From Candidatus Thorarchaeota archaeon (GTDB lineage Archaea > Asgardarchaeota > Thorarchaeia > Thorarchaeales > Thorarchaeaceae): a stretch of 59,801 bases of DNA. The notes under the pieces are model-generated. The model made no database searches. It was not told the origin of the DNA and was given only the letters and a program-made list of their open reading frames with translations. Where the stretch lies: assembly GCA_016840685.1 (NCBI GenBank), contig JAEORX010000003.1, forward strand, positions 1 to 59,801, in the 5' to 3' direction. The translations under genes were made by a program, and so were the position numbers. Below, piece by piece: positions 31,767 to 45,892 of the stretch (the stretch's first letter is position 1; each line of letters opens with the position of its first letter).

Positions 31767-32318
31767 TTGAAGCTAGTCGACCTGGCCAGGGAGTCAGTCA
31801 GGGTTCTGAAGGAGTGTGGTAGTGAGGGCATAAGGAGTGATATCCTGGCTGAACTATTAGACACTCCAAAGCGAAGAGTGTATGATATCATCGCTGTTCT
31901 AAAAGCGTTAGATCAAGTGAGTACAACACGGAAATTTGATGGTACCATCGTAAAATGGGTTGATAAAACCAAAGACTTTGTTTCCCGTGAATCCTATGAC
32001 ACTGTGAAAATGCAGCTTGATCAAGAGAGTACTGAGAGAAAGGATCTGCAAGTCCAAGTGGCTGAACTAAAGGAGCAGGTGCGAATATCAAAGATCAAAC
32101 TCCGTCGAGAAACAACAGCAGTTGAATCATCAGACAAAATGGAGTTTAATACTACTCAGCTCCGAGTTCGGGCGCTCTCAAGCAATGGCATCAAGAGTGT
32201 GAAGCACTCTGGAGTGGAAGTGCGAATTGAAACCCATGAGGCTGGCATGGTTGTTGATCCTACAGAAATCGAAGTTGATGAGAAGAAGGCACTAGTCACA
32301 AAGCTCCAACGAATCTAA
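31767..32318 (+). CDS. E2F/DP-like winged-helix protein with coiled coil
   Basis: 183 residues from TTG 31767 with GGGGTG 5 bases upstream. Residues 3-68 form a winged helix: the recognition helix reads DTPKRRVYDIIAVLKALDQV, matching the RRxYDI-x-NVL signature by which E2F and DP factors touch DNA, and the wing FDGTIVKWVDK matches the E2F NxIxW strand. A coiled coil follows (about residues 75-115, VKMQLDQESTERKDLQVQVA), as in E2F/DP dimers. The C-terminal 60 residues are beta-rich and unassigned. In eukaryotes these factors control cell-cycle genes; here only DNA binding and dimerisation are inferred. Confidence 0.8.
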   Translation: MKLVDLARESVRVLKECGSEGIRSDILAELLDTPKRRVYDIIAVLKALDQVSTTRKFDGTIVKWVDKTKDFVSRESYDTVKMQLDQESTERKDLQVQVAELKEQVRISKIKLRRETTAVESSDKMEFNTTQLRVRALSSNGIKSVKHSGVEVRIETHEAGMVVDPTEIEVDEKKALVTKLQRI

Positions 32319-32753: not shown

Positions 32754-33935
32754 TTGCAGCAAAGCCTTAATTGGGCACGAACAAAGTTTGACAAGGAGAG
32801 GATTCGGCTGGCCTCCACCAAGTTAGACGTTGCATTTGTAGTTGATACAACTGGTTCAATGAAGGATGATATTCAGGCTGTTAAAGACAGTCTATTCGAG
32901 ATTGTGGACCATGTCACACGACGAACTGAGGGGTTGGAGATTCGTTTTGGCATAGTGTCTTATCGCGATCATCCACCTCAGGACAGAACATATGTCACCA
33001 AGGTTTTTGATTTCAGTGAGAAGATAAAACAAGTCCACAAACAGATTTCAGATTTAAGACCCTCTGAAGGAGGAGACACGCCAGAGGCTGTCGCAGATGG
33101 TCTCTTCGATGCTAGGACAAGACTCTCTTGGGAACGCGATGCATACAAAGTGCTTCTTCTTGTGGGGGATGCACCTCCTCATGGTAAACGATACAATAGC
33201 ATAGGTGATGATTACTTTCCAGAGGGGTGTCCAAAGGGACATGACCCAATACAGGAGGTTAGACAGCTTCGAAGTGATTTTGGAAGTACTGTTTTCATTT
33301 TTGTCTGTGGCTGCAACCCTCTTGTTGAGGAGTCCTTCAGGAAAATCGCATCATCTGTCGAAGATGGAAAATACTATTCTCTTCTTGAGGCGCATCAACT
33401 ACCAGAAGCAATATTGCAAATCCTCGAAGGTGTAAGTGATCTTATAGAAGCTGACAGAAAGGTCCTTGCTTTCTACGAACTAAACGATGGTACCTTTGAT
33501 ATGGGTGAAGCAGCCTCAGCCCTGTCCATGGAGCTACGAGCACTTAAGACATCACTTTCCCGGCTTCTTGAGCTTGGTAGGATAGCACGGTGGCCAAAAG
33601 GAAGACCTCTATCAGCTTCACAAATGGGGCTCACTGTTGAACTTGGAGAGGTCCCTAACAATATAGTGGCTGGAAAAGCATTCAACTACTCTATTAGGGT
33701 GAAAAATCCAAGCTCAACTATAGTCAGCATACGTGTCATAGCTTCTTTGATTACCTCTGAAGGTGTTTCTGAAGTGACCAATGAGCTTCATGATATTGGT
33801 TCAAGAGCTGACAAGAAACTAGAGTTAAAACTAGTCCCGATGACAGATACCAAGGGAAAGGCGAGCTTGAGAATAGAGGTGTTTTATGGCTCGCGTTCAA
33901 TTGCCACTGAGATATACACTACTCGTATCTATTGA
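32754..33935 (+). CDS. vWA domain protein with winged-helix and Ig-like C-terminal parts
   Basis: 393 residues from TTG 32754, the only start before the fold begins; no ribosome site is seen. Residues 20-220 are a von Willebrand A domain with the MIDAS motif DTTGSM (Asp31, Thr33, Ser35) and GGDTPEAVADGL, which supplies the further Thr. Residues about 235-285 look like a winged helix (ALSMELRALKTSLSRLLELG). The last ~110 residues are a beta-sandwich resembling Ig-like domains (NYSIRVKNPSSTIVSIRVIA). It is the first gene of a set that overlaps the next by 50 bases. Likely a metal-dependent protein-binding scaffold. Confidence 0.82.
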   Translation: MQQSLNWARTKFDKERIRLASTKLDVAFVVDTTGSMKDDIQAVKDSLFEIVDHVTRRTEGLEIRFGIVSYRDHPPQDRTYVTKVFDFSEKIKQVHKQISDLRPSEGGDTPEAVADGLFDARTRLSWERDAYKVLLLVGDAPPHGKRYNSIGDDYFPEGCPKGHDPIQEVRQLRSDFGSTVFIFVCGCNPLVEESFRKIASSVEDGKYYSLLEAHQLPEAILQILEGVSDLIEADRKVLAFYELNDGTFDMGEAASALSMELRALKTSLSRLLELGRIARWPKGRPLSASQMGLTVELGEVPNNIVAGKAFNYSIRVKNPSSTIVSIRVIASLITSEGVSEVTNELHDIGSRADKKLELKLVPMTDTKGKASLRIEVFYGSRSIATEIYTTRIY

Positions 33936-35109
33936 TGGAGGACTTCTATTGATTCTTCGGGCAAAACAAGGAAGAAATCAACAGGGTCTATGTTTTGTTC
34001 CATCAGAGGTATTTGACTCAATCATTAAAGTATGTGAACTACAAACTGAATCCAAATCTCTTCTTGTTGACATTAGGTGTTCTGACAAAGTTCCCGAGGG
34101 GGCTATCATTCTTGATTCTCGAATTTATCAGATTCTTGCTTGCGATGATGAAGAAGAAATTTCTGTGATTGGTAAAAACGAGGAGATTCCGACGTGTATC
34201 GAACTTCATCTCGGAGTTGTTTCAAAACGCAGTGTTAGGAATGACCAGCTTGCCCAAGCCATTTCAAAAAGGATTGATGATTTCAAAGATTACTTTGAAG
34301 GCTTGATATTTAGGCAGGGACAGAGAATCAACATAGATGATTTGGGGATTAGTTTTGAACTAAGGTCTTTGAGTCCGATAAGTTCTGTTTCGGGCTCAGC
34401 AAGAATTCATTGGAAAAAACTCCTCAAAATACATCTCGATGTAATTGAGTCCAAAGCAAGTAACTTCTATTTTATAGTCGAAGTGGCTGCAGCTACACAG
34501 ATTGCGGATGTTAAGGCGTTTGGGGATGATGGCGGGAGTTATCATATCACACGTCATCAGGCTATCCTAGAATCATTGGATTCAATTGAGAAACATTTTG
34601 ATGTCCAGAGTAGCAATGCATGGTTTTCTGGAATTCTGTTCTCAGATGAAGTGTGTCCCTACATCACCTATGATTCACAAACCGGTGAAGAAACTGAGAT
34701 CACCCCTCTGTACTCGCCATCGCTTATGAAAGCATTTAGAAATTGGCTCGGTCAGTCTGTTAATGAGCATAAGAACAAACCATCGAACATTGGAGCTGCA
34801 TTGAGATATGCATCTGATATGGTACAACTTCTGAATGAGAAGAATGGACTACCTAGCATTATCATCCTATTTTCGAGTGGTATATTTTCAACCGGAAAAA
34901 ATCCAGTAAAGGTGGCACAAATGGTTCTTAGCGGTCTACCAGTCAAAATTCTTTGTATTTCAGTGGGTGAGGATTCCACAACAGACATTATGGAAGCAAT
35001 TGCTAAACATACCGATGGAACGATGATCCATTTGAATAGAACTGATAGAACGAGTCTAATTGTAGATACACTCAATATCATGACAGGACAGGGTGATGTT
35101 GATGGGTAA
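33886..35109 (+). CDS. double-psi-barrel plus degenerate vWA protein
   Basis: 407 residues. ATG 33886 has AGAGGTG 6 bases upstream, so the 50-base overlap with the previous gene is believable. The N-terminal ~100 residues (FVPSEVFDSIIKVCELQ, then PEGAIILDSRIYQILACDDE) resemble the Cdc48 N-terminal double-psi barrel. The C-terminal half follows a vWA fold (AALRYASDMVQLLNEKNGLP, then SIIILFSSGIFSTGKNPVKV), but the MIDAS strand reads VEVAAATQIADVKAFG with no DxSxS. Probably a non-metal vWA partner of the neighbouring vWA proteins. Next gene overlaps by 8 bases. Confidence 0.68.
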   Translation: MARVQLPLRYTLLVSIDGGLLLILRAKQGRNQQGLCFVPSEVFDSIIKVCELQTESKSLLVDIRCSDKVPEGAIILDSRIYQILACDDEEEISVIGKNEEIPTCIELHLGVVSKRSVRNDQLAQAISKRIDDFKDYFEGLIFRQGQRINIDDLGISFELRSLSPISSVSGSARIHWKKLLKIHLDVIESKASNFYFIVEVAAATQIADVKAFGDDGGSYHITRHQAILESLDSIEKHFDVQSSNAWFSGILFSDEVCPYITYDSQTGEETEITPLYSPSLMKAFRNWLGQSVNEHKNKPSNIGAALRYASDMVQLLNEKNGLPSIIILFSSGIFSTGKNPVKVAQMVLSGLPVKILCISVGEDSTTDIMEAIAKHTDGTMIHLNRTDRTSLIVDTLNIMTGQGDVDG

Positions 35110-36256: not shown

Positions 36257-36490
36257 ATGAAAGGTGGGAACAAATTTACACGGGAAATTAAAGATCTGGA
36301 AAAGAAAATCGTAAGCCTCGAGCAGAGTATCATTACTAAAGATGATTCTTCGTTCGTATCATCTCTGCTAACAAAAATGAACGCTGTTCAAGCATTGATT
36401 GACCAAATCGAGATCGAACTCGACAAATTAGAAATGAGAGTATCAGCAATAGAGCACATGGACTTTAGATTTAGGACAGGTGGTCAGTAG
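36257..36490 (+). CDS. small coiled-coil protein
   Basis: 77 residues, almost entirely coiled coil (REIKDLEKKIVSLEQSIITK and IDQIEIELDKLEMRVSAIEH). It follows the larger coiled-coil gene by 18 bases on the same strand and could pair with it. No clear ribosome site. Its end overlaps the convergent 885-residue gene by 20 bases. Confidence 0.55.
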   Translation: MKGGNKFTREIKDLEKKIVSLEQSIITKDDSSFVSSLLTKMNAVQALIDQIEIELDKLEMRVSAIEHMDFRFRTGGQ

Positions 36491-39128
36491 AACCTTTCAT
36501 CACACTGTCTATTAGGTTCATTAAATACCCCTCAAAAACTGGTCCGGAAAAGACCTCTATTGGTAGAACCTTGGTATTCAATCCTTTTAACAATCTCAGG
36601 TTACCCTTCATGTTTCCATTATCTCCTAGAGTGAGAATATCCAATCGATACCTATCATGTTCAGCGATTGCTCTTAGAAATGAGAGATGTTCCTCATCAT
36701 ATACACCAACACTGCTACCCAGAACAATGGCTATTGTTGGTCTGTCTTCACCAAAATCTTCCAGATACTCCGCAATTGAACGATAAACAGATGCCATATT
36801 CTCGTGGCTGTCTAAATCTTCAACAGTGTCTAAAATCGAATAAATCAACGAGATCAAGACCTCTTCAGACCGTAGGTCTTCAAAGAATTCGATGTATGGT
36901 TGAACCTCTTTCCCTCGTTGAATCGAGAACTTGTCAGACCTCTCTCCAAAGGTTACTAAAGCAAGTCGTCCCTCAGTCTGATTATATAACAATTCATTGA
37001 TTAGCAAAAGTGAAGATAAAGCTGCAATTTGTGATCGAGATGTATTCTTTCGAAGTCCATTGAGAAACGTTTGGAGTTCTGGAACCCTATCACTTAGGCT
37101 TTTAAGACGGTTTCTAATAGCTGTCGGAGTTTTCAAGATCACATCTTTGGTTCTCATCTTCTGTCCCTTTGAGATACAGAGAATTATGTTGAGTTCATTG
37201 AAGGCTTGTTCAGGTCTGAAATACGATTTTTCCCTCGTAAGTCTACCTACCTGTCCTGAGAGAAGATGTGGTCGGGAGCTTTCCAAGCATAGAATCACTG
37301 CACTATCCTCTGTTCCAACACTCAAGTGAGTATCTAAGCCTACGAGAACACCATCCACTGACTGTTGTATCTCCTTTTCGTGTAAATGCATGAATGAGGC
37401 TAGTTCCGCATTGTCATGATCTTGCGGTGTATTGTATGATAGAACCGCTTCTGACAAGTCTATGATTTCATCTTCGTACTTTACGAGATTGACCACGGAT
37501 GAAGTACGAAAACCAAAGAGTGATGCATCCTTTTCGGAAACCACTAGAGACCGTTCACCACATCTTGCATGTTGCTTTAATTGACCCGTAGCCCATCTTC
37601 CGGTACTTGAGTCAAGAGCAAGGACAAAATCTCCTGATTCAACTTCAAGTGCGGTCATGTCCTGTTCGCACATGAAGAAAATCCCTGGATCGGATTTTGC
37701 TATCTCAACACCAAAATGCAGTGCGGAGAGTATATCTTTAGGGTTCTTTACTTGTAGGCAGGTAAGTAGAGCTTGGTTAAATCGAGTCAGATGTGCTGGG
37801 GAACCAAAGATTGGTCCATCTAGTTTTGCATTAGCTCGAACAAGAGTGTCCAATAGAACTCCATCGCGTTCTATAAGACTGTCTGTAAATGCTTGTCTCC
37901 ATCCTGAGATCATAACGGATCCGTTCTTCTCTAGTAAGACTGCCAGGCATGTTGCTTTTGGAGATGTGGGGCTCTTTAATGTCAGGACTGCGCTATCAAG
38001 ATGGACTTTTCCCCCATAGCTATCAATCATATAGTCAATTGATGAAATACCTAGTATTTTTCGGGCATCCAAGAGTTGGAGAATCCTTGCAAGCTCATTC
38101 ATGGCCGCCTTTCCAAGGCTCTCCTCAGCCATCACTGAAGTGCTGTTCTCCTCATAAGCGAAAAAGCCTGGTCGCGGCTGAAGTAGGGAGAGCATATTTC
38201 CACCGAGTATTCTTTGAACTTCCTCTGGTTCAGCAGCTAGATTTCTACTCAGGATATAGCTAAAGACTTCAGATATACTGTCACCAAACTGCGTTTCAGG
38301 GTATGCTGAACCAAACATTAATCGTCTTGACCAATTAGCATCACTTTGTTTTCTCCTCATATGGCGAATCAGGGTTGATAAAGAAGAAATAGTCGCTCCT
38401 GATGTCAAGACTTTACTTCCTGGGACGTCAAGGAGTTTTGTAATTTCCTTGCCCCACTGTTTGTGGTTCTTTGCACTAAGTACAAGATTAGGTGTTTTTA
38501 GTCCAGCCTGTTTGAGAAGAACAAGCCACTCAAGAAGAGGATCTAATTCTGATGAGGGCTCAAGTTCAATGAATACTGGTTTCCCACCTTTTATGTAATC
38601 CAATAGGTCCTTCCTGTTCGAGCCCTTTAAGATGTGGTGAAGATCCTCTGCTCTCAGTATGCACCCCCATCCTTGCTCAGTTCGACGGTCTAATCTCATG
38701 TCCTGAAGATGGTATAACCTCGGGCTATAAGGGGGAACGGTTGACCATCTGAAAATAGATTCAGCATTTGCCTTTTGTTGAAGCGCTGGGAGTTTTGTTC
38801 CCCCTAAGCTAATGAGAGGTTTGACTACAAGATAATCAGCAACCCAGCTTGTCTGGGAAGATGATGCAGTTCCGTGATAAAACTCGCTCAGCAGTCGAGG
38901 TTTCTTAAGGTAGTCATAAACTCTCCTAGGCAGATATCTAAAGGCTCCTGGATATCTCATGGCGAAATCATATAGTTGATGCTCAACCTGGCCATAATAC
39001 GAAAATACTCGTTCTGGGTCAAATGCTCTAATGCTTTTTCCAGCACGCACAATACCCAAGTAGTTGGAGCTGTCAACGACAATAAAGCGATGAATCTCAT
39101 TAGCCTCAATGTCCTCAACAACTATCAT
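36471..39128 (-). CDS. metal-site-dead amidohydrolase fused to double-psi-barrel and vWA-like domains
   Basis: 885 residues. Residues 1-450 follow the amidohydrolase protein encoded divergently at 39276: EVFSYILSRNLAAEPEEVQR plus ILGGNMLSLLQ here against DVILYLLSRDFPGTLADAQR plus VLAGNALSLVQ there. Every metal position is lost: VDSSNYLG in place of VDAHHHMG, VLSAKNHK for ILAHCGM, FGSAYPE for FGTDFSF. Residues about 490-570 resemble a Cdc48-N-like double-psi barrel (DMTALEVESGDFVLALDS). Residues about 600-880 follow a vWA order (GVLVGLDTHLSVGTED, LALVTFGERSDK, PTIAIVLGSSVGVYDEEH) without a full MIDAS. A pseudo-enzyme scaffold is likely. Confidence 0.72.
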   Translation of the reverse strand: MIVVEDIEANEIHRFIVVDSSNYLGIVRAGKSIRAFDPERVFSYYGQVEHQLYDFAMRYPGAFRYLPRRVYDYLKKPRLLSEFYHGTASSSQTSWVADYLVVKPLISLGGTKLPALQQKANAESIFRWSTVPPYSPRLYHLQDMRLDRRTEQGWGCILRAEDLHHILKGSNRKDLLDYIKGGKPVFIELEPSSELDPLLEWLVLLKQAGLKTPNLVLSAKNHKQWGKEITKLLDVPGSKVLTSGATISSLSTLIRHMRRKQSDANWSRRLMFGSAYPETQFGDSISEVFSYILSRNLAAEPEEVQRILGGNMLSLLQPRPGFFAYEENSTSVMAEESLGKAAMNELARILQLLDARKILGISSIDYMIDSYGGKVHLDSAVLTLKSPTSPKATCLAVLLEKNGSVMISGWRQAFTDSLIERDGVLLDTLVRANAKLDGPIFGSPAHLTRFNQALLTCLQVKNPKDILSALHFGVEIAKSDPGIFFMCEQDMTALEVESGDFVLALDSSTGRWATGQLKQHARCGERSLVVSEKDASLFGFRTSSVVNLVKYEDEIIDLSEAVLSYNTPQDHDNAELASFMHLHEKEIQQSVDGVLVGLDTHLSVGTEDSAVILCLESSRPHLLSGQVGRLTREKSYFRPEQAFNELNIILCISKGQKMRTKDVILKTPTAIRNRLKSLSDRVPELQTFLNGLRKNTSRSQIAALSSLLLINELLYNQTEGRLALVTFGERSDKFSIQRGKEVQPYIEFFEDLRSEEVLISLIYSILDTVEDLDSHENMASVYRSIAEYLEDFGEDRPTIAIVLGSSVGVYDEEHLSFLRAIAEHDRYRLDILTLGDNGNMKGNLRLLKGLNTKVLPIEVFSGPVFEGYLMNLIDSVMKGSTDHLS

Positions 39129-39275
39129 TTCTTAGGTCTCCAGATTTGTCTATCAGGAGGTCTGCAGAAGTCGATATATGCCTAATGCTGATTTCTATGG
39201 AGCTAAGCGATGGACAACGACCAATGATTTATCACATATTTAGAATTACCATCAATTTGGAGGATATGATCGACC

Positions 39276-40784
39276 ATGCTCGTTATTCGAGCCGTTGAAG
39301 ACCTACCAAATCGAGGTATTAAGAAGGGAGATGAGTTTCAACTCTATATTGTGGATGCTCATCATCACATGGGCCGAGAGAAAGGACACAAAAATACGCC
39401 TTCTGGAGCCTACGATTTTTATGCGCAGCTTTGGTTTGAGATGCAAAAGAAGTCTGAAACTTTACTTAATGAAGAACACCTTTTGTTTGAACCCATTGGT
39501 CTGGCTGCACCTAAGCTGGCAACGAAACTCTTTCAGAGTAGACCTAATTGGGCTCGAGTAGATCATGGTTGGCTTGTTGACAGAACAATCGTTTTTCCAT
39601 ATACTGATGACTATTCTATTCCATCTTCCAAGGGGGAACCATCTTTTAAGGTGTCTAATGACAAAATATGGTCTTGGACAACCAGAGCACCCCACTCGTC
39701 TAGGTTGATTGGTTTTGCACGTGTCAATCCTCTAGACGGTTCTCTAGATGGTAATCTTATCGCAGTAAAGGAGTTGGATCGAAGTGTGTTCTCACTCGGC
39801 TTGAGAGGATTAAAACTACATCCTTTAGCTCAGCTCTTCGTGGATTCAATCGACAAGAACGAACCACGAGAGGTAGTGAAACGAGCAGGTGAGCTTGGAA
39901 TCCCAGTAATTTTTGATACTCGAAATATCCGAACAGTGGTAAGAATTAAACGACTTGTTGACTCGATGCGGAACGATCCCGATTGTGGTGCTGCCATCAA
40001 GGGACTACGAGTCATCTTGGCTCATTGTGGAATGACTCCGGGCGACTCTCGACTTTATGAGGCTCTGAAAGATCCACTAATATTTGCAGAAACATCCACG
40101 CTTCATGACAAAGATGTTCCTGTTTTATTTGAATCAGCTTATGAACGACTTGGCGCATCTCCGATTAACTGGTCTGAGAAGATACTCTTTGGTACTGATT
40201 TTAGTTTTCTATCAGTTCAAGCTATGGATGTGATTTTGTATCTATTATCGCGAGATTTTCCTGGAACACTGGCTGATGCTCAAAGAGTACTTGCTGGTAA
40301 TGCTCTCTCACTTGTTCAAAGCCCATATAGGACCACAATGGGCTCCTCAGAACCACCAATCGAACTTATCTGCAAGGATGAGTCCTTCACTATTCAACAT
40401 GACCTAGAAGATCAAATTATAAAATTACTAACTGGTGGAATATGGGATCTGGGATCACTTGATTTCATGATTCCTCCTCTTGGAACTTGGCCAGAACCAA
40501 GCTGCATCTCCAAGGGTGGGTTCAATGGTGTGGATATGGAATCTTATGTCCTCTCACTGAAATCAAAGGAGAAGTCCAAGGAGATGCATTTCTGGATTCG
40601 ACGACGTCCTGATAGCCTTCTCAGCTGCACAGTGTTATCAACACAAGGAATGACTCGCCTCGAAACTCTAGAGAATGCTTCTCAAAAACTCGGACAGGTC
40701 TTGCTAAAATCAATATCAGATCATTCTCAGACTTATCAATCATCACGTGAGATGGAGTCAGAAGTACTGAAGCTACTATCATGA
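39276..40784 (+). CDS. amidohydrolase-fold protein with extra C-terminal domain
   Basis: 502 residues from ATG 39276 (GGAGG 12 bases upstream). The TIM-barrel amidohydrolase_2 landmarks are VDAHHHMGR (His29-x-His31), GLKLHPL (Lys180, His182), VILAHCG (His250) and LFGTDFS (Asp308). The usual middle His after the fifth strand reads PVIFDT, with Asp214, so the metal site may be modified. Residues about 345-502 form an extra domain shared with the 885-residue paralogue (DLGSLDFMIPPLG; YVLSLKSKEK). Probable hydrolase; substrate unknown. Divergent from the paralogue and directly upstream of the intact vWA gene. Confidence 0.8.
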   Translation: MLVIRAVEDLPNRGIKKGDEFQLYIVDAHHHMGREKGHKNTPSGAYDFYAQLWFEMQKKSETLLNEEHLLFEPIGLAAPKLATKLFQSRPNWARVDHGWLVDRTIVFPYTDDYSIPSSKGEPSFKVSNDKIWSWTTRAPHSSRLIGFARVNPLDGSLDGNLIAVKELDRSVFSLGLRGLKLHPLAQLFVDSIDKNEPREVVKRAGELGIPVIFDTRNIRTVVRIKRLVDSMRNDPDCGAAIKGLRVILAHCGMTPGDSRLYEALKDPLIFAETSTLHDKDVPVLFESAYERLGASPINWSEKILFGTDFSFLSVQAMDVILYLLSRDFPGTLADAQRVLAGNALSLVQSPYRTTMGSSEPPIELICKDESFTIQHDLEDQIIKLLTGGIWDLGSLDFMIPPLGTWPEPSCISKGGFNGVDMESYVLSLKSKEKSKEMHFWIRRRPDSLLSCTVLSTQGMTRLETLENASQKLGQVLLKSISDHSQTYQSSREMESEVLKLLS

Positions 40785-40820: not shown

Positions 40821-42143
40821 GTGTCTCCTAAAAGGACTCAGGAGGTAAATGCCATCACCAAGAAATTAACCTTGGAGATAATTGACGGTGGAGACCTGAG
40901 GGGCTTCGCTAACATTAATCCCAAAACAGCAAAGAAACTGGATGCTGATATTGGTTCAATCCTGATATTTGAGGATCCTCAGAGTAGCTTCTGGGGTGCG
41001 GCTGAAATTAGAAAGAGCACTGAAGTTGCAGAGAATACGATCGTCATCGACACATTGGTTCTTGAAGCGTCATTACTTATGGAAGGCGATGAAGTAGATG
41101 TCACTCTCTATGATGAAGATATGCTCGCTCTAGAATACGTTGAGTTTGGTATCAAGCCATTGACTGAAGATGCCAATACAGAAGACCTTGTGACAAGAGC
41201 CGCTGAGCGTGTTAAGTCACTCGAGAATATCATCGGTGGTCGACTAGTATATCCTGGGATGTCTTTCAACTGGCCTGAACTTGATGTCAAAGTGGAGATT
41301 ATCAACACAAAACCTGATCTTGCTGGAAAAAAGTTCGCCAAGTTGGCATTTGAGGCACTTCGTGAGCGTACTGGTTATCAGTTCAAAACTGTTGGTGTCG
41401 CAGCCCCCTTCAACGCTGTACTTTGCATAGACACAAGTGGCTCCATGAAGACCACTGACGTACCTGTGCAAGATATCGCCCATGCTCGTGAGGGTCTCAA
41501 GGACCTAGCTGGAGATAGTCCTGAGGTCCAAGCATTTCTTAATCGGTTTGAAGAAGGTAAGAATGTAAGTAGGGCGGAAGCTGCTGCAATGGCTGTTCTC
41601 CTCTATCTAGCCGAAAAAGTAGGTCGTGGTTATGGCGAAAAGGTGGGAGTGATTACATTTGAAAAAGAAGTAAGTGAGATGACTTTCCTTAACTCCGACA
41701 CCGGCGAGGTTCAACCATTTGTAGAATGTACTGGTAGGGAAAAAGCACTTGGTCTTCAAATCATCAGCACGCATGTCGTAGACAAGGTGGAGGAGGGAGG
41801 TACTCTTACAGACATGGGTACTGCCTTGGCTAAAGCACATCAGATTATGGAGGAGTTTGGTGATCCTGATAAACCAACGATGCTCATCATGCTGACCGAT
41901 GGGATGACGACTTCCGGACCTCCCCCACTCAAAGTTCTAAAAGAACGATTCACTGATAGAAGCAAACTTGTGATATACTCCATTGGTCTGGGAGAACGTA
42001 GTGAGATAGACGAGGAGCTTATGCTCGCAATTGCTCAATATGGCAACGGGAGTTATCGACATGTTGACAACATGCGAGATTTACTAGAGTGGTATGGCAA
42101 ACTTGCTGGTGAATTTGCAGTTGTCATCCGTGGTTCTGAATGA
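40821..42143 (+). CDS. Cdc48-N-like double-psi-barrel plus vWA protein
   Basis: 440 residues from GTG 40821. Residues about 14-105 match the Cdc48/VCP N-terminal double-psi barrel: GFANINPKTAKKLDADIGSI against GIARIDPxxxxKLGLxxGDx, then TIVIDTLVLEASLLMEGDEV. Residues 195-430 are a vWA domain with complete MIDAS CIDTSGSM (Asp204, Ser206, Ser208), GGTLTDMGTAL and MLTDGMTTSG. The true start is unsure: AGGAGGT at 40840-40846 is followed by ATG 40849, which is out of frame; one missing base there would make it the start. Cdc48-N barrels normally recruit adaptors to AAA+ ATPases. Confidence 0.82.
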   Translation: MSPKRTQEVNAITKKLTLEIIDGGDLRGFANINPKTAKKLDADIGSILIFEDPQSSFWGAAEIRKSTEVAENTIVIDTLVLEASLLMEGDEVDVTLYDEDMLALEYVEFGIKPLTEDANTEDLVTRAAERVKSLENIIGGRLVYPGMSFNWPELDVKVEIINTKPDLAGKKFAKLAFEALRERTGYQFKTVGVAAPFNAVLCIDTSGSMKTTDVPVQDIAHAREGLKDLAGDSPEVQAFLNRFEEGKNVSRAEAAAMAVLLYLAEKVGRGYGEKVGVITFEKEVSEMTFLNSDTGEVQPFVECTGREKALGLQIISTHVVDKVEEGGTLTDMGTALAKAHQIMEEFGDPDKPTMLIMLTDGMTTSGPPPLKVLKERFTDRSKLVIYSIGLGERSEIDEELMLAIAQYGNGSYRHVDNMRDLLEWYGKLAGEFAVVIRGSE

Positions 42144-43479: not shown

Positions 43480-44292
43480 ATGACTGCTGATAAACAAACA
43501 CTGTGGCTAAGACTCACTCTGTTCATGATAGCAATGTTTTTGATTGTGTTGATGTCACCGGTCGTTGTCAATCTTTTTCAAGACAATGAAGAAGTCTTAG
43601 CTTTGGCTGCTACTCTTGTCTTCTTTCTTACATTCGTCCTAATGTATACAGTCACTTGGTTCTTTGTAAGATGGGATGGAGGAGAATCGATTGAAGAATT
43701 AGGAGTTAAAATCGATGATAGATTTAGCCCTCACCTAATGATTGGTGCAACAGCAGGAACTATTGGTGCAATATTGGTCGTGGCAATCGCCTTCTTTTTT
43801 GGCGGTCAGCTTCGTCCGATTGACCAAATAACTGCTGACTTGATAGTAAATGAAATAATCATTACAGCACCAACAGCCTTCTTTGAAGAGTTGGTTCATC
43901 GTGGCTACATCTTAACCAGATTGGAGAATCTGGCTGGAAAACCATTCGCCATAGTTTTCAGTTCACTCTTCTTCTCACTTCTTCATTTCAGCTGGTGGCC
44001 TCGTACTGCATTTGATTTGCCTTTGATAGCCATTTTCACATTCAATATGTTTCTTGGTGGTGTTGTCTTATCGCTCAGCTACTATCTATCTGGCCGAAGA
44101 CTCTGGGTGCCTATTTCATTCCACTTTATGTGGAACATGATTGCCTACATAATGTTTCCACCATTCCCCAGAGAAGCAGTGACACAACCTGGAGTTTTTC
44201 AGATTGAATGGGGAATCACAACAATTGTGGGCTTTCTATTTGGCCTCTCAATACTTTGGAGTCTTCTTGCTTCAGAGAAAAAGAGGGATTAG
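43480..44292 (+). CDS. CPBP-family intramembrane metalloprotease
   Basis: 270 residues with about eight hydrophobic segments. The family's catalytic motifs are present: FFEELVHRGYIL (EExxxR), FSSLFFSLLHFSW (FxxxH) and SFHFMWNM (HxxxN-like). CPBP/Abi proteins include CAAX prenyl-end proteases and bacteriocin-immunity proteins; the substrate here is unknown. It acts in the membrane. Ends at a hairpin shared with the convergent NfeD gene. Confidence 0.88.
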   Translation: MTADKQTLWLRLTLFMIAMFLIVLMSPVVVNLFQDNEEVLALAATLVFFLTFVLMYTVTWFFVRWDGGESIEELGVKIDDRFSPHLMIGATAGTIGAILVVAIAFFFGGQLRPIDQITADLIVNEIIITAPTAFFEELVHRGYILTRLENLAGKPFAIVFSSLFFSLLHFSWWPRTAFDLPLIAIFTFNMFLGGVVLSLSYYLSGRRLWVPISFHFMWNMIAYIMFPPFPREAVTQPGVFQIEWGITTIVGFLFGLSILWSLLASEKKRD

Positions 44293-44320
44293 AAGGGAAC
44301 GGTTTCATCCGAACCCTTCT
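44291..44320. terminator. inverted repeat between convergent genes
   Basis: AGAAGGG-AA-CGG and CCG-AA-CCCTTCT pair across a TTTCAT loop with an internal AA/AA mismatch. It begins at the stop codon of the CPBP gene and ends before the stop of the NfeD gene, the normal place for a bidirectional terminator. T-runs are absent, so the call is moderate. Confidence 0.45.
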
Positions 44321-44333
44321 ACTGGCTGAAAAT

Positions 44334-45026
44334 CTATTGGTCCATGCCTGAAATATCATCAGGTCTTCTCACATACATCGTGATACCAGTGATGTGATCG
44401 ATAACAACCTGTTCTCCTGCCTTGATTGGTGGACCAGAGGTCCTCGCCCACCATATCTCAGCACCTGTCTTAACCTTCCCCTTTGGATTAAGATCAGTGA
44501 CTGCATGGATATCCGCGTACTTGAATTGAGAATAGGTAGGCCATTTGTCGTAATCCCTAAGGAAAGCGAAATACAGCATCATCAGACAGAATACTGTGCC
44601 TGCCATGATATACACAGTTAGTTGCCTTGTTGGATCGATTAGAACTGAGAGGAAAATAGCTACCCCGTAGAGCGGGAAAAGCTTCAGCGACACCTTCGCA
44701 TCAATAAAGCCTCCTTCTACGAAGCTGCTTCCACCTGTGAACATGGTGAACATAAGATACAATACGCCAAAGATTATCAGAAGCATCCAGTCGTCAAACG
44801 AGAAGTCTGAAATCCACACCTGAAACACGAAGAGTATGATTATTATCGGTACAACAACTTGCGCCATTGCTTTACCAGTTGCTGGTTCAAGAGTGATAAC
44901 CAACAATGTGATTAGAACACCAAAAATCATCAATCCATAAAATGGATTGATGAGGAGAAGCGGCATGACCATACTCAGCGCTGAGAACATTATCATGACA
45001 ACAACGATTTTTATCCATGCATCCAT
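44334..45026 (-). CDS. NfeD-like membrane protein
   Basis: 230 residues from ATG 45026 with GGAGGAAAC 7 bases upstream. Five or so hydrophobic segments fill residues 5-160. The C-terminal 70 residues (DIHAVTDLNPKGKVKTGAEI, then AGEQVVIDHITGITMYVRRP) form the OB-fold typical of NfeD. NfeD genes pair with stomatin/SPFH genes and this one follows an SPFH gene by 29 bases, confirming the pairing. It lacks the ClpP-like protease domain, so it is the short NfeD type. Confidence 0.87.
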   Translation of the reverse strand: MDAWIKIVVVMIMFSALSMVMPLLLINPFYGLMIFGVLITLLVITLEPATGKAMAQVVVPIIIILFVFQVWISDFSFDDWMLLIIFGVLYLMFTMFTGGSSFVEGGFIDAKVSLKLFPLYGVAIFLSVLIDPTRQLTVYIMAGTVFCLMMLYFAFLRDYDKWPTYSQFKYADIHAVTDLNPKGKVKTGAEIWWARTSGPPIKAGEQVVIDHITGITMYVRRPDDISGMDQ

Positions 45027-45055
45027 CTTGTTTCCTCCTACATCCAGAAAGAGAA

Positions 45056-45892
45056 CTAGTCTTCAGAAGCTCCCTTGTCCTTTGGTACTCTTAATCCCCC
45101 TGTGCCTGCCGAGAGAGCTACAGATGTTCCTGCAGCCATCCCAACTTCTGGAAGATTAGTCGGGATCATGATAATCAGGTTGGCATTCTTCGATATCTCC
45201 TGCATGATGTTCCATTGCCGGAGCATGAAACCCACACTTGACTCCTCATAGATTCGAGCCGCCTTCAACATGTTCTCCGAAGCCTCGAGTTCAGCTGTAG
45301 CTAGAGTGATTCTGGCTCTACGTTCTCTCTCAGCCTGCGCTTCTCGACTCATGGCATCCTGAAGTGCCGACGGAATGACGACATCTCGAATCTCGACACT
45401 TGTGACCTTAACACCCCAGTGCTCAGTCTTCTCGTCAATAAGTTCCTGAAGATGTCCAGCAATCTGATCACGTTCTGACAGCAGCTGGTCCAGAGTCACC
45501 TTACCTGTTGTTTCTCGTAGTGTTGTCTGGGCAGCAAGCTCCACAGCAACTGTGTATCTTTCAACACTGAGAATTGCTTTCTCAACATCAATGACCCGGA
45601 AATACATCACAGCATCGACGACAACTGGCACGTTGTCCTTTGTCAATGAACGTTCTGTTTTGAAGGCGTATGTAAGGAGTCTAAGTGAAACCTTCATTGC
45701 CACCTTGTCAAGAATGGGCGTGACCCAGATGACACCAGGACCTCTGATGTGTTTGAATTTACCCAGTCTAAGAACAGCAACGCGTTCCCACTCCTTGAGA
45801 ACCTTGATTCCGCTCGCTACAAACATAAGAACGAAGAATGCGAGCACGATGACTAGCATCATTACGAAATATGAATCTAACATGAATTGCAA
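45056..45892 (-). CDS. SPFH/stomatin-family protein (slipin)
   Basis: 278 residues, probably from TTG 45892 because GGAAGGAG is correctly spaced for it; ATG 45883 would be too far. One N-terminal membrane helix (residues about 8-30) precedes the SPFH domain: LKEWERVAVLRLGKFKHIRG, VPVVVDAVMYFRVIDVEKAI, TTLRETTGKVTLDQLLSERD, IRDVVIPSALQDAMSREAQA. C-terminal helices then end in a Gly-rich tail. Stomatins form membrane microdomain scaffolds. Partner of the NfeD protein. Confidence 0.92.
   Translation of the reverse strand: MQFMLDSYFVMMLVIVLAFFVLMFVASGIKVLKEWERVAVLRLGKFKHIRGPGVIWVTPILDKVAMKVSLRLLTYAFKTERSLTKDNVPVVVDAVMYFRVIDVEKAILSVERYTVAVELAAQTTLRETTGKVTLDQLLSERDQIAGHLQELIDEKTEHWGVKVTSVEIRDVVIPSALQDAMSREAQAERERRARITLATAELEASENMLKAARIYEESSVGFMLRQWNIMQEISKNANLIIMIPTNLPEVGMAAGTSVALSAGTGGLRVPKDKGASED

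Follow-up and report, generated by a model that had tools for sequence, protein, structure and literature searches.

Here, we ask why a Candidatus Thorarchaeota archaeon keeps, divergently beside a gene for an amidohydrolase, a long gene for a related protein from which the metal sites have disappeared, and what this protein, here referred to as FUSED, could do. FUSED is encoded in a stretch of 59,801 nucleotides (contig JAEORX010000003.1; the window) next to AMH, an amidohydrolase family protein, and VWA3, a protein with a Cdc48N-like region and a vWA domain. An earlier note on this DNA had described FUSED as a pseudo-amidohydrolase fused to two interaction modules and had suggested that it is a duplicated enzyme turned scaffold or regulator of its active sister. 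Among the papers covered by a literature search, none described this locus. Our comparisons suggest that FUSED is no relic but probably still functions, as a partner or adaptor without catalytic activity.

Results

FUSED matches both members of the AMH-VWA3 unit

The open reading frame for the 885 residues of FUSED was confirmed and begins with an ATG; it lies on the minus strand, a point missing from the earlier note. The similarity to the 502-residue amidohydrolase at 39276 (AMH), which had been recognized by eye, was borne out by BLASTP for the N-terminal half (4e-9) and by profile-profile alignment with hhalign, in which residues 1-407 of FUSED aligned with residues 1-451 of AMH over 396 columns (probability 99.8%, E 3.9e-29). 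Likewise, the common block LSR..QR.L.GN.LSL and the extra middle domain were found in both proteins. The C-terminal half matches VWA3 (BLASTP 3e-19), and residues 468-859 of FUSED aligned with residues 14-417 of VWA3 in hhalign (E 2.8e-35). Because the N-terminal half resembles AMH and the C-terminal half resembles the product of the next gene, these alignments indicate that FUSED duplicates the complete AMH-VWA3 unit as one fused protein, with its halves in gene order and its gene divergently beside that unit. Thus, FUSED does contain two more domains, as proposed; however, these are not unrelated interaction modules, and the C-terminal half is paralogous to VWA3 over nearly its full length.

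We considered two other relationships between these genes and rejected both. A 957-residue frame that joins AMH and VWA3 came up in a search and would imply a fusion by stop-codon read-through; however, in the window AMH is followed by a TGA, with 36 bp between it and VWA3, and the joint frame occurs only in some genomes. In other families, open reading frames lie between the AMH and VWA3 genes and could be unfused FUSED orthologues, but they had no match to the FUSED, AMH, or vWA profiles, and several are GCS2-like.

A structure model of FUSED was built from 17 orthologues (mean pLDDT 87, pTM 0.61). Using VIA-align, the barrel in the N-terminal half of the model matched the amidohydrolase 4do7 (Z 16.9, rmsd 3.4, 225 aligned residues, model residues 15-319) and also the 5-carboxyvanillate decarboxylase 4qrn (Z 15.7), while the C-terminal part matched the vWA domain 4fx5 (Z 17.4, rmsd 2.5, 179 aligned residues). 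Between the two sits a Cdc48/NSF-N-like region, for which Foldseek returned NSF-N and p97-N and the sequence signal is weak; the "barrel" module of the earlier note is thus Cdc48/NSF-N-like. Based on the profile comparison and the amidohydrolase barrel in the model, the N-terminal domains of FUSED and AMH are homologous and not, as the earlier note had allowed for, unrelated.

Table 1. Features of the window discussed in the text
Feature	Position	Strand	Evidence or remark
VWA2, second Cdc48N/vWA-like protein, without MIDAS	33886..35109	+	PF02933 (CDC48_2) 0.00087, under cut-off; motif table
FUSED, 885-aa pseudo-amidohydrolase + Cdc48N-like + pseudo-vWA protein	36471..39128	-	ORF, ATG start; orthologues in 51 Asgard genomes; dN/dS 0.07-0.18
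vWA fold without MIDAS, FUSED aa 644-885	36474..37199	-	Fold match 4fx5 Z 17.4 (645-877); motif table
Lost MIDAS Asp: S805 at VWA3 D360	36714..36716	-	
Lost MIDAS Thr: E776 at VWA3 T330	36801..36803	-	
Lost MIDAS motif 1: SKGQKM (aa 653-658) for DTSGSM	37155..37172	-	Motif table
Cdc48/NSF-N-like region (double-psi barrel + second subdomain), FUSED aa 467-643	37200..37730	-	hhalign to VWA3 from aa 468; Foldseek NSF-N, p97-N
Middle domain common to FUSED aa 320-466 and AMH C-terminal part	37731..38171	-	hhalign reaches FUSED 407/AMH 451
Amidohydrolase-type barrel, FUSED aa 1-319	38172..39128	-	E 3.9e-29 in hhalign against AMH; 4do7 as fold match, Z 16.9 (15-319)
Lost ligand: A275 at AMH D308 (GTD)	38304..38306	-	
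Lost ligand: A219 at AMH H250 (AHCG)	38472..38474	-	
Lost ligand: R159 at AMH H182 (KLHP); alignment approximate here	38652..38654	-	
Lost HxH metal motif: SNY (aa 21-23) where AMH has H29-H-H31	39060..39068	-	
Divergent intergenic region common to FUSED and AMH	39129..39275	.	113-168 bp in 28 loci compared; 8 aligned
AMH, Amidohydro_2 family protein, ligand motifs intact	39276..40784	+	PF04909 E 9.4e-13, 49 bits vs. cut-off 26.4
VWA3, Cdc48N-like + vWA, MIDAS intact, start codon uncertain	40821..42143	+	VWA_2 3.3e-10
SPFH/Band_7 protein	45056..45892	-	PF01145 3e-37; adjoins FUSED orthologues in f4 and f11
GCS2-like ligase, 1153 aa	49580..53041	-	PF04107 1.8e-5, 24.7 bits vs. 21

Both metal sites are lost in FUSED and intact in AMH and VWA3

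The three site substitutions listed in the earlier note (DSSNYLG for DAHHHMG, SAKNHK for AHCGM, and GSAYP for GTDFS) are all correct, and homology to AMH combined with loss of the metal site is thereby supported. Two losses had not been listed: the fourth ligand motif, KLHP, is also gone from FUSED, and the C-terminal half has lost the MIDAS (DxSxS, T, D) as well. The motifs HxH, KLHP, AH, and GTD are present in 35 of 35 Asgard AMH sequences aligned, in which one-residue variants (KVHP, GH, and GSD) retain the ligands; based on these intact motifs, AMH is presumably catalytically active. Similarly, the MIDAS residues D204, S206, S208, T330, and D360 of VWA3 are invariant in an alignment of 18 rows; as a set, they are not retained in FUSED, and the MIDAS is incomplete in all FUSED sequences aligned.

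A search for orthologues, which the earlier note had proposed, found the full ligand set in none of the FUSED sequences aligned. The loss is graded: orthologues from family f11 retain HxH, and some of them an Asp-x-Ser, without the other ligands; those from f4 are intermediate; and the copies from the Thorarchaeota family of the window (f1) have none of the four motifs complete, with a single His of HxH remaining in one copy. Two FUSED-specific motifs, T[SA]GATI and YPETQ.GD, are near-invariant in Thorarchaeota, where they are among the best-conserved motifs of the barrel; the latter stands where a metal-ligand motif was. Both are absent from the f4 and f11 orthologues.

FUSED is restricted to three families and under purifying selection

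Of the 227 Asgard genomes searched, 51 have FUSED orthologues: 43 belong to the Thorarchaeota family of the window, which is represented by 47 genomes, and four each to f4 and f11 (4 of 4 in both), with none elsewhere; these counts are a hand tally of a table and include a few incomplete copies, split or truncated where contigs end. AMH and VWA3 were found in 130 and 129 genomes, respectively, including many families without FUSED. In unrooted trees with long branches, FUSED forms one side of a 100/100 branch for the N-terminal half and for the C-terminal half, a pattern compatible with a single duplication-fusion origin. Among the VWA3 sequences, one from a record titled Candidatus Lokiarchaeota (WJMJ01000071.1) is 82% identical to Thorarchaeota VWA3, and this record is perhaps a mislabeled bin. 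In other Asgard families (loci L108, L105, and L106), the VWA3 homologue has additional N-terminal regions that weakly match the Cdc48N-like part, so that barrel domains may stand in tandem there.

Between close species, dN/dS is 0.07-0.18 for FUSED and 0.09-0.13 for AMH; therefore, FUSED is under purifying selection, in line with the retention proposed earlier. In the copies found, the frame is long and uninterrupted by stops, and this holds even between families with 21% identity; FUSED evolves faster than VWA3. Being homologous to an enzyme, having lost the catalytic residues, and being retained by selection, FUSED is, by these sequence measures, a pseudoenzyme. The evolutionary distances of FUSED covary with those of AMH (r 0.58) and VWA3 (r 0.50, N-terminal half) after removal of the SPFH and HEAT distances, a correction that removes the species-tree signal only partly; when the SPFH distances alone are removed, the covariation of FUSED with HEAT is about as strong as that with AMH. 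We regard the FUSED-AMH covariation as weak support for a partnership.

The locus is near-invariant in Thorarchaeota, and three genomes retain FUSED without AMH and VWA3

In Thorarchaeota, the gene order E2F-like, VWA1, VWA2, COIL, FUSED, AMH, VWA3, and HEAT is near-invariant, with FUSED pointing away from AMH and VWA3. VWA2 is fast evolving (dN/dS 0.19-0.28). The protein at 31767-32318, which is syntenic with the locus, has an E2F/DP-type winged-helix match (PF02319, E 2.9e-7) and a possible coiled coil, and is a possible regulator. In the intergenic region common to FUSED and AMH, the alignment of eight loci revealed two conserved TATA-like elements: GATATATGC at about 39173-39181, on the minus strand and directed towards FUSED, and TTTATCAC at about 39228-39235, directed towards AMH. 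Both may function in the promoters of the two genes.

In three genomes that are 95-98% complete (G019, G024, and G211), the locus reads HEAT-FUSED-E2F; AMH and VWA3 are lacking between HEAT and FUSED and were found nowhere else in these genomes, while FUSED is full length. All three have likewise lost the VWA1 orthologue; two of them lack the GCS2-like gene, and in the remaining one this gene is truncated or divergent. In two further genomes (G219 and G220), none of FUSED, AMH, and VWA3 was found. Thus, AMH, VWA3, VWA1, and mostly the GCS2-like gene vanish together, and in G219 and G220 FUSED was not found either. After the loss of AMH and VWA3, the C-terminal half of FUSED evolves ∼2-fold faster in two of the three lineages, as relaxed constraint might produce; the HEAT and E2F neighbors speed up too. 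Because three genomes that lack AMH and VWA3 have an intact FUSED, its function is not wholly dependent on the intact sisters. For the same reason, and since the f4 and f11 copies lie beside an SPFH gene and not beside AMH, the role as regulator of the active sister put forward in the earlier note does not hold as the whole story.

A GCS2-like ligase and an SPFH protein are recurrent neighbors

In the window, a gene for a GCS2-like ligase is located ∼7 kb from VWA3. Such a gene adjoins AMH and/or VWA3 in the majority of the other Asgard families examined (f2, f4, f11, f18, f20-f23, f25, and f26), and the GCS2-type motifs GxExE, ILE..TPP, H.H, and TIEIR..D are conserved in the ligase family. 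Based on this synteny, the GCS2-like ligase is likely a functional partner of AMH. In f4 and f11, FUSED adjoins the SPFH gene and is roughly 11-16 kb from AMH-VWA3 where contigs allow, or on another contig. In the window, an NfeD-like gene and the SPFH/Band_7 gene form a pair at 43480-45892 beside a CAAX-protease-like gene. None of seven proteins of the locus had a PADLOC match, and we rejected an anti-phage defense system.

Discussion

Several known systems share parts of this arrangement. The Amidohydro_2 (PF04909) enzymes, e.g., 4qrn and the COG3618 amidohydrolase 4do7, have the same barrel fold as FUSED (Z 15.7-16.9), and AMH is a member of this family; in contrast, the FUSED copy in the window lacks every ligand motif and scores 11.4 bits against PF04909, under the cut-off of 26.4. 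Collapsin response mediator proteins (CRMPs) are 58% identical to DHPase, and none has DHPase activity (PMC4051505). Like FUSED, these pseudo-dihydropyrimidinases are close homologues of an enzyme of the amidohydrolase superfamily, CRMPs being without its activity and FUSED without its metal sites; unlike FUSED, they belong to another branch (the cyclic amidohydrolases), have no vWA half, and are not a copy of a neighboring two-gene unit. FluG of Aspergillus is a fusion of an amidohydrolase and a gamma-glutamyl ligase, and it requires the catalytic residues in each of its two regions (PMC6478659). In FluG, an amidohydrolase thus works together with such a ligase, a precedent that bears on the pairing of AMH with a GCS2-like neighbor; however, the FluG ligase is glutamine-synthetase-like and not GCS2, and the Asgard fusion instead joins an amidohydrolase to a Cdc48N-vWA part and is dead.

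For the Cdc48N-vWA half, the best Foldseek match of both VWA3 (E 6e-13) and FUSED (E 1.5e-11) is DEPDC5/Iml1, with a low whole-chain TM of about 0.3 or less; on the p97 N target, VWA3 has a TM of 0.74. In DEPDC5/Iml1 of GATOR1, the NTD is Sec18/NSF-like and SABA is Sec23-like (PMC8534245), so that an NSF/Cdc48-N-like domain precedes a Sec23-like domain, an order that VWA3 and FUSED may share. By contrast, there is no room in the Asgard proteins for the SHEN, DEP, and CTD domains, and the MIDAS of VWA3 is intact. The IML1 profile PF12257 matched neither VWA3 nor FUSED in 14 Asgard genomes, with nothing over the cut-off, and no Iml1/DEPDC5 chain was among the 60 sequence-based matches listed. 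Membership in DEPDC5 thus lacks support from sequence, and we take the likeness in the models as a lead only, in which a shared architecture could stem from descent or convergence.

What, then, does FUSED do? Most likely, this conserved pseudoenzyme acts as a scaffold or sensor for an uncharacterized ligase/hydrolase module and also has some independent role. More specifically, we give a probability of about 0.5 to the reading that FUSED is a non-catalytic subunit of a module of AMH and VWA3, possibly with the GCS2-like ligase, and serves at least one further client. As the sequences show, FUSED goes back to a duplicate of the AMH-VWA3 unit: its two parts became joined in gene order, the metal site of each disappeared, and purifying selection then retained the gene. 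The fusion, together with the synteny of AMH and VWA3, suggests that AMH-type and VWA-type chains touch. Via such inherited interfaces, FUSED would join or bridge the module and, without metal of its own, may tune how the module assembles, how substrates reach it, or how active it is, while the common divergent promoter region would match the dose of FUSED to that of AMH and VWA3. Where AMH and VWA3 have been lost, FUSED would use this adaptor surface for at least one other client, for which the SPFH membrane protein is a candidate.

Alternatively, FUSED could have left the AMH-VWA3 pathway altogether to act as a scaffold at an SPFH/NfeD membrane platform or for another client, in which case its closeness to AMH in Thorarchaeota would be inherited. 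Its retention in G019, G024, and G211, the directly adjoining SPFH gene in f4 and f11, and the near-invariant GATI and YPET..GD motifs, the latter in place of a metal-ligand motif, would all fit. However, the near-invariant divergent pairing with AMH and the conserved common intergenic region across Thorarchaeota, the failure to find any of FUSED, AMH, and VWA3 in G219 and G220, and the covariation with AMH make a complete departure less likely than the subunit reading. The same two motifs raise the question of whether residues of T[SA]GATI and YPETQ.GD have replaced the old active site by a new, possibly metal-independent one, in particular because neutral decay of the site would not predict that they are among the best-conserved barrel motifs in Thorarchaeota. 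Their absence from the f4 and f11 orthologues, the lack of a recognizable residue constellation like a known catalytic set, and the loss of the site in the C-terminal half too argue that such a re-tooled enzyme is improbable.

The remaining two readings concern origin and fate. The unrooted trees leave the direction of change ungiven, so that FUSED could in principle be ancestral and have given rise to AMH and VWA3 by fission. However, about 130 of the 227 Asgard genomes have separate AMH and VWA3 genes, with many families without FUSED among them and with sites intact in all sequences aligned; FUSED is limited to three families, and a dead ancestor would need to have its sites regained; we therefore see only a slim chance for this order of events. 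That FUSED evolves faster than VWA3 and has lost its sites could also point to a pseudogene in progress. We rejected this reading as very improbable, given a dN/dS like that of AMH and long frames that no internal stop interrupts in the copies found, even between families at 21% identity. Returning to FUSED as a subunit of the AMH-VWA3 module, we speculate, with considerable doubt, that the module could be an undescribed Asgard system for writing and erasing amide bonds, in which the GCS2-like ligase would be the writer, AMH the eraser, VWA3 a substrate adaptor, and FUSED a reader or decoy that also acts at an SPFH membrane platform.

Pseudoenzymes are already known; what is unusual here is that a single protein is a fused dead copy of two neighboring site-intact genes, on the other strand and across a family. 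The graded loss of the sites over three Asgard families, together with three genomes that dropped the sisters and retained the dead copy, provides a natural test of how a pseudoenzyme originates. Moreover, the fusion predicts that AMH and VWA3 interact, and the locus points to an uncharacterized ligase/hydrolase/Cdc48N-vWA module that is widespread in the archaea closest to eukaryotes.
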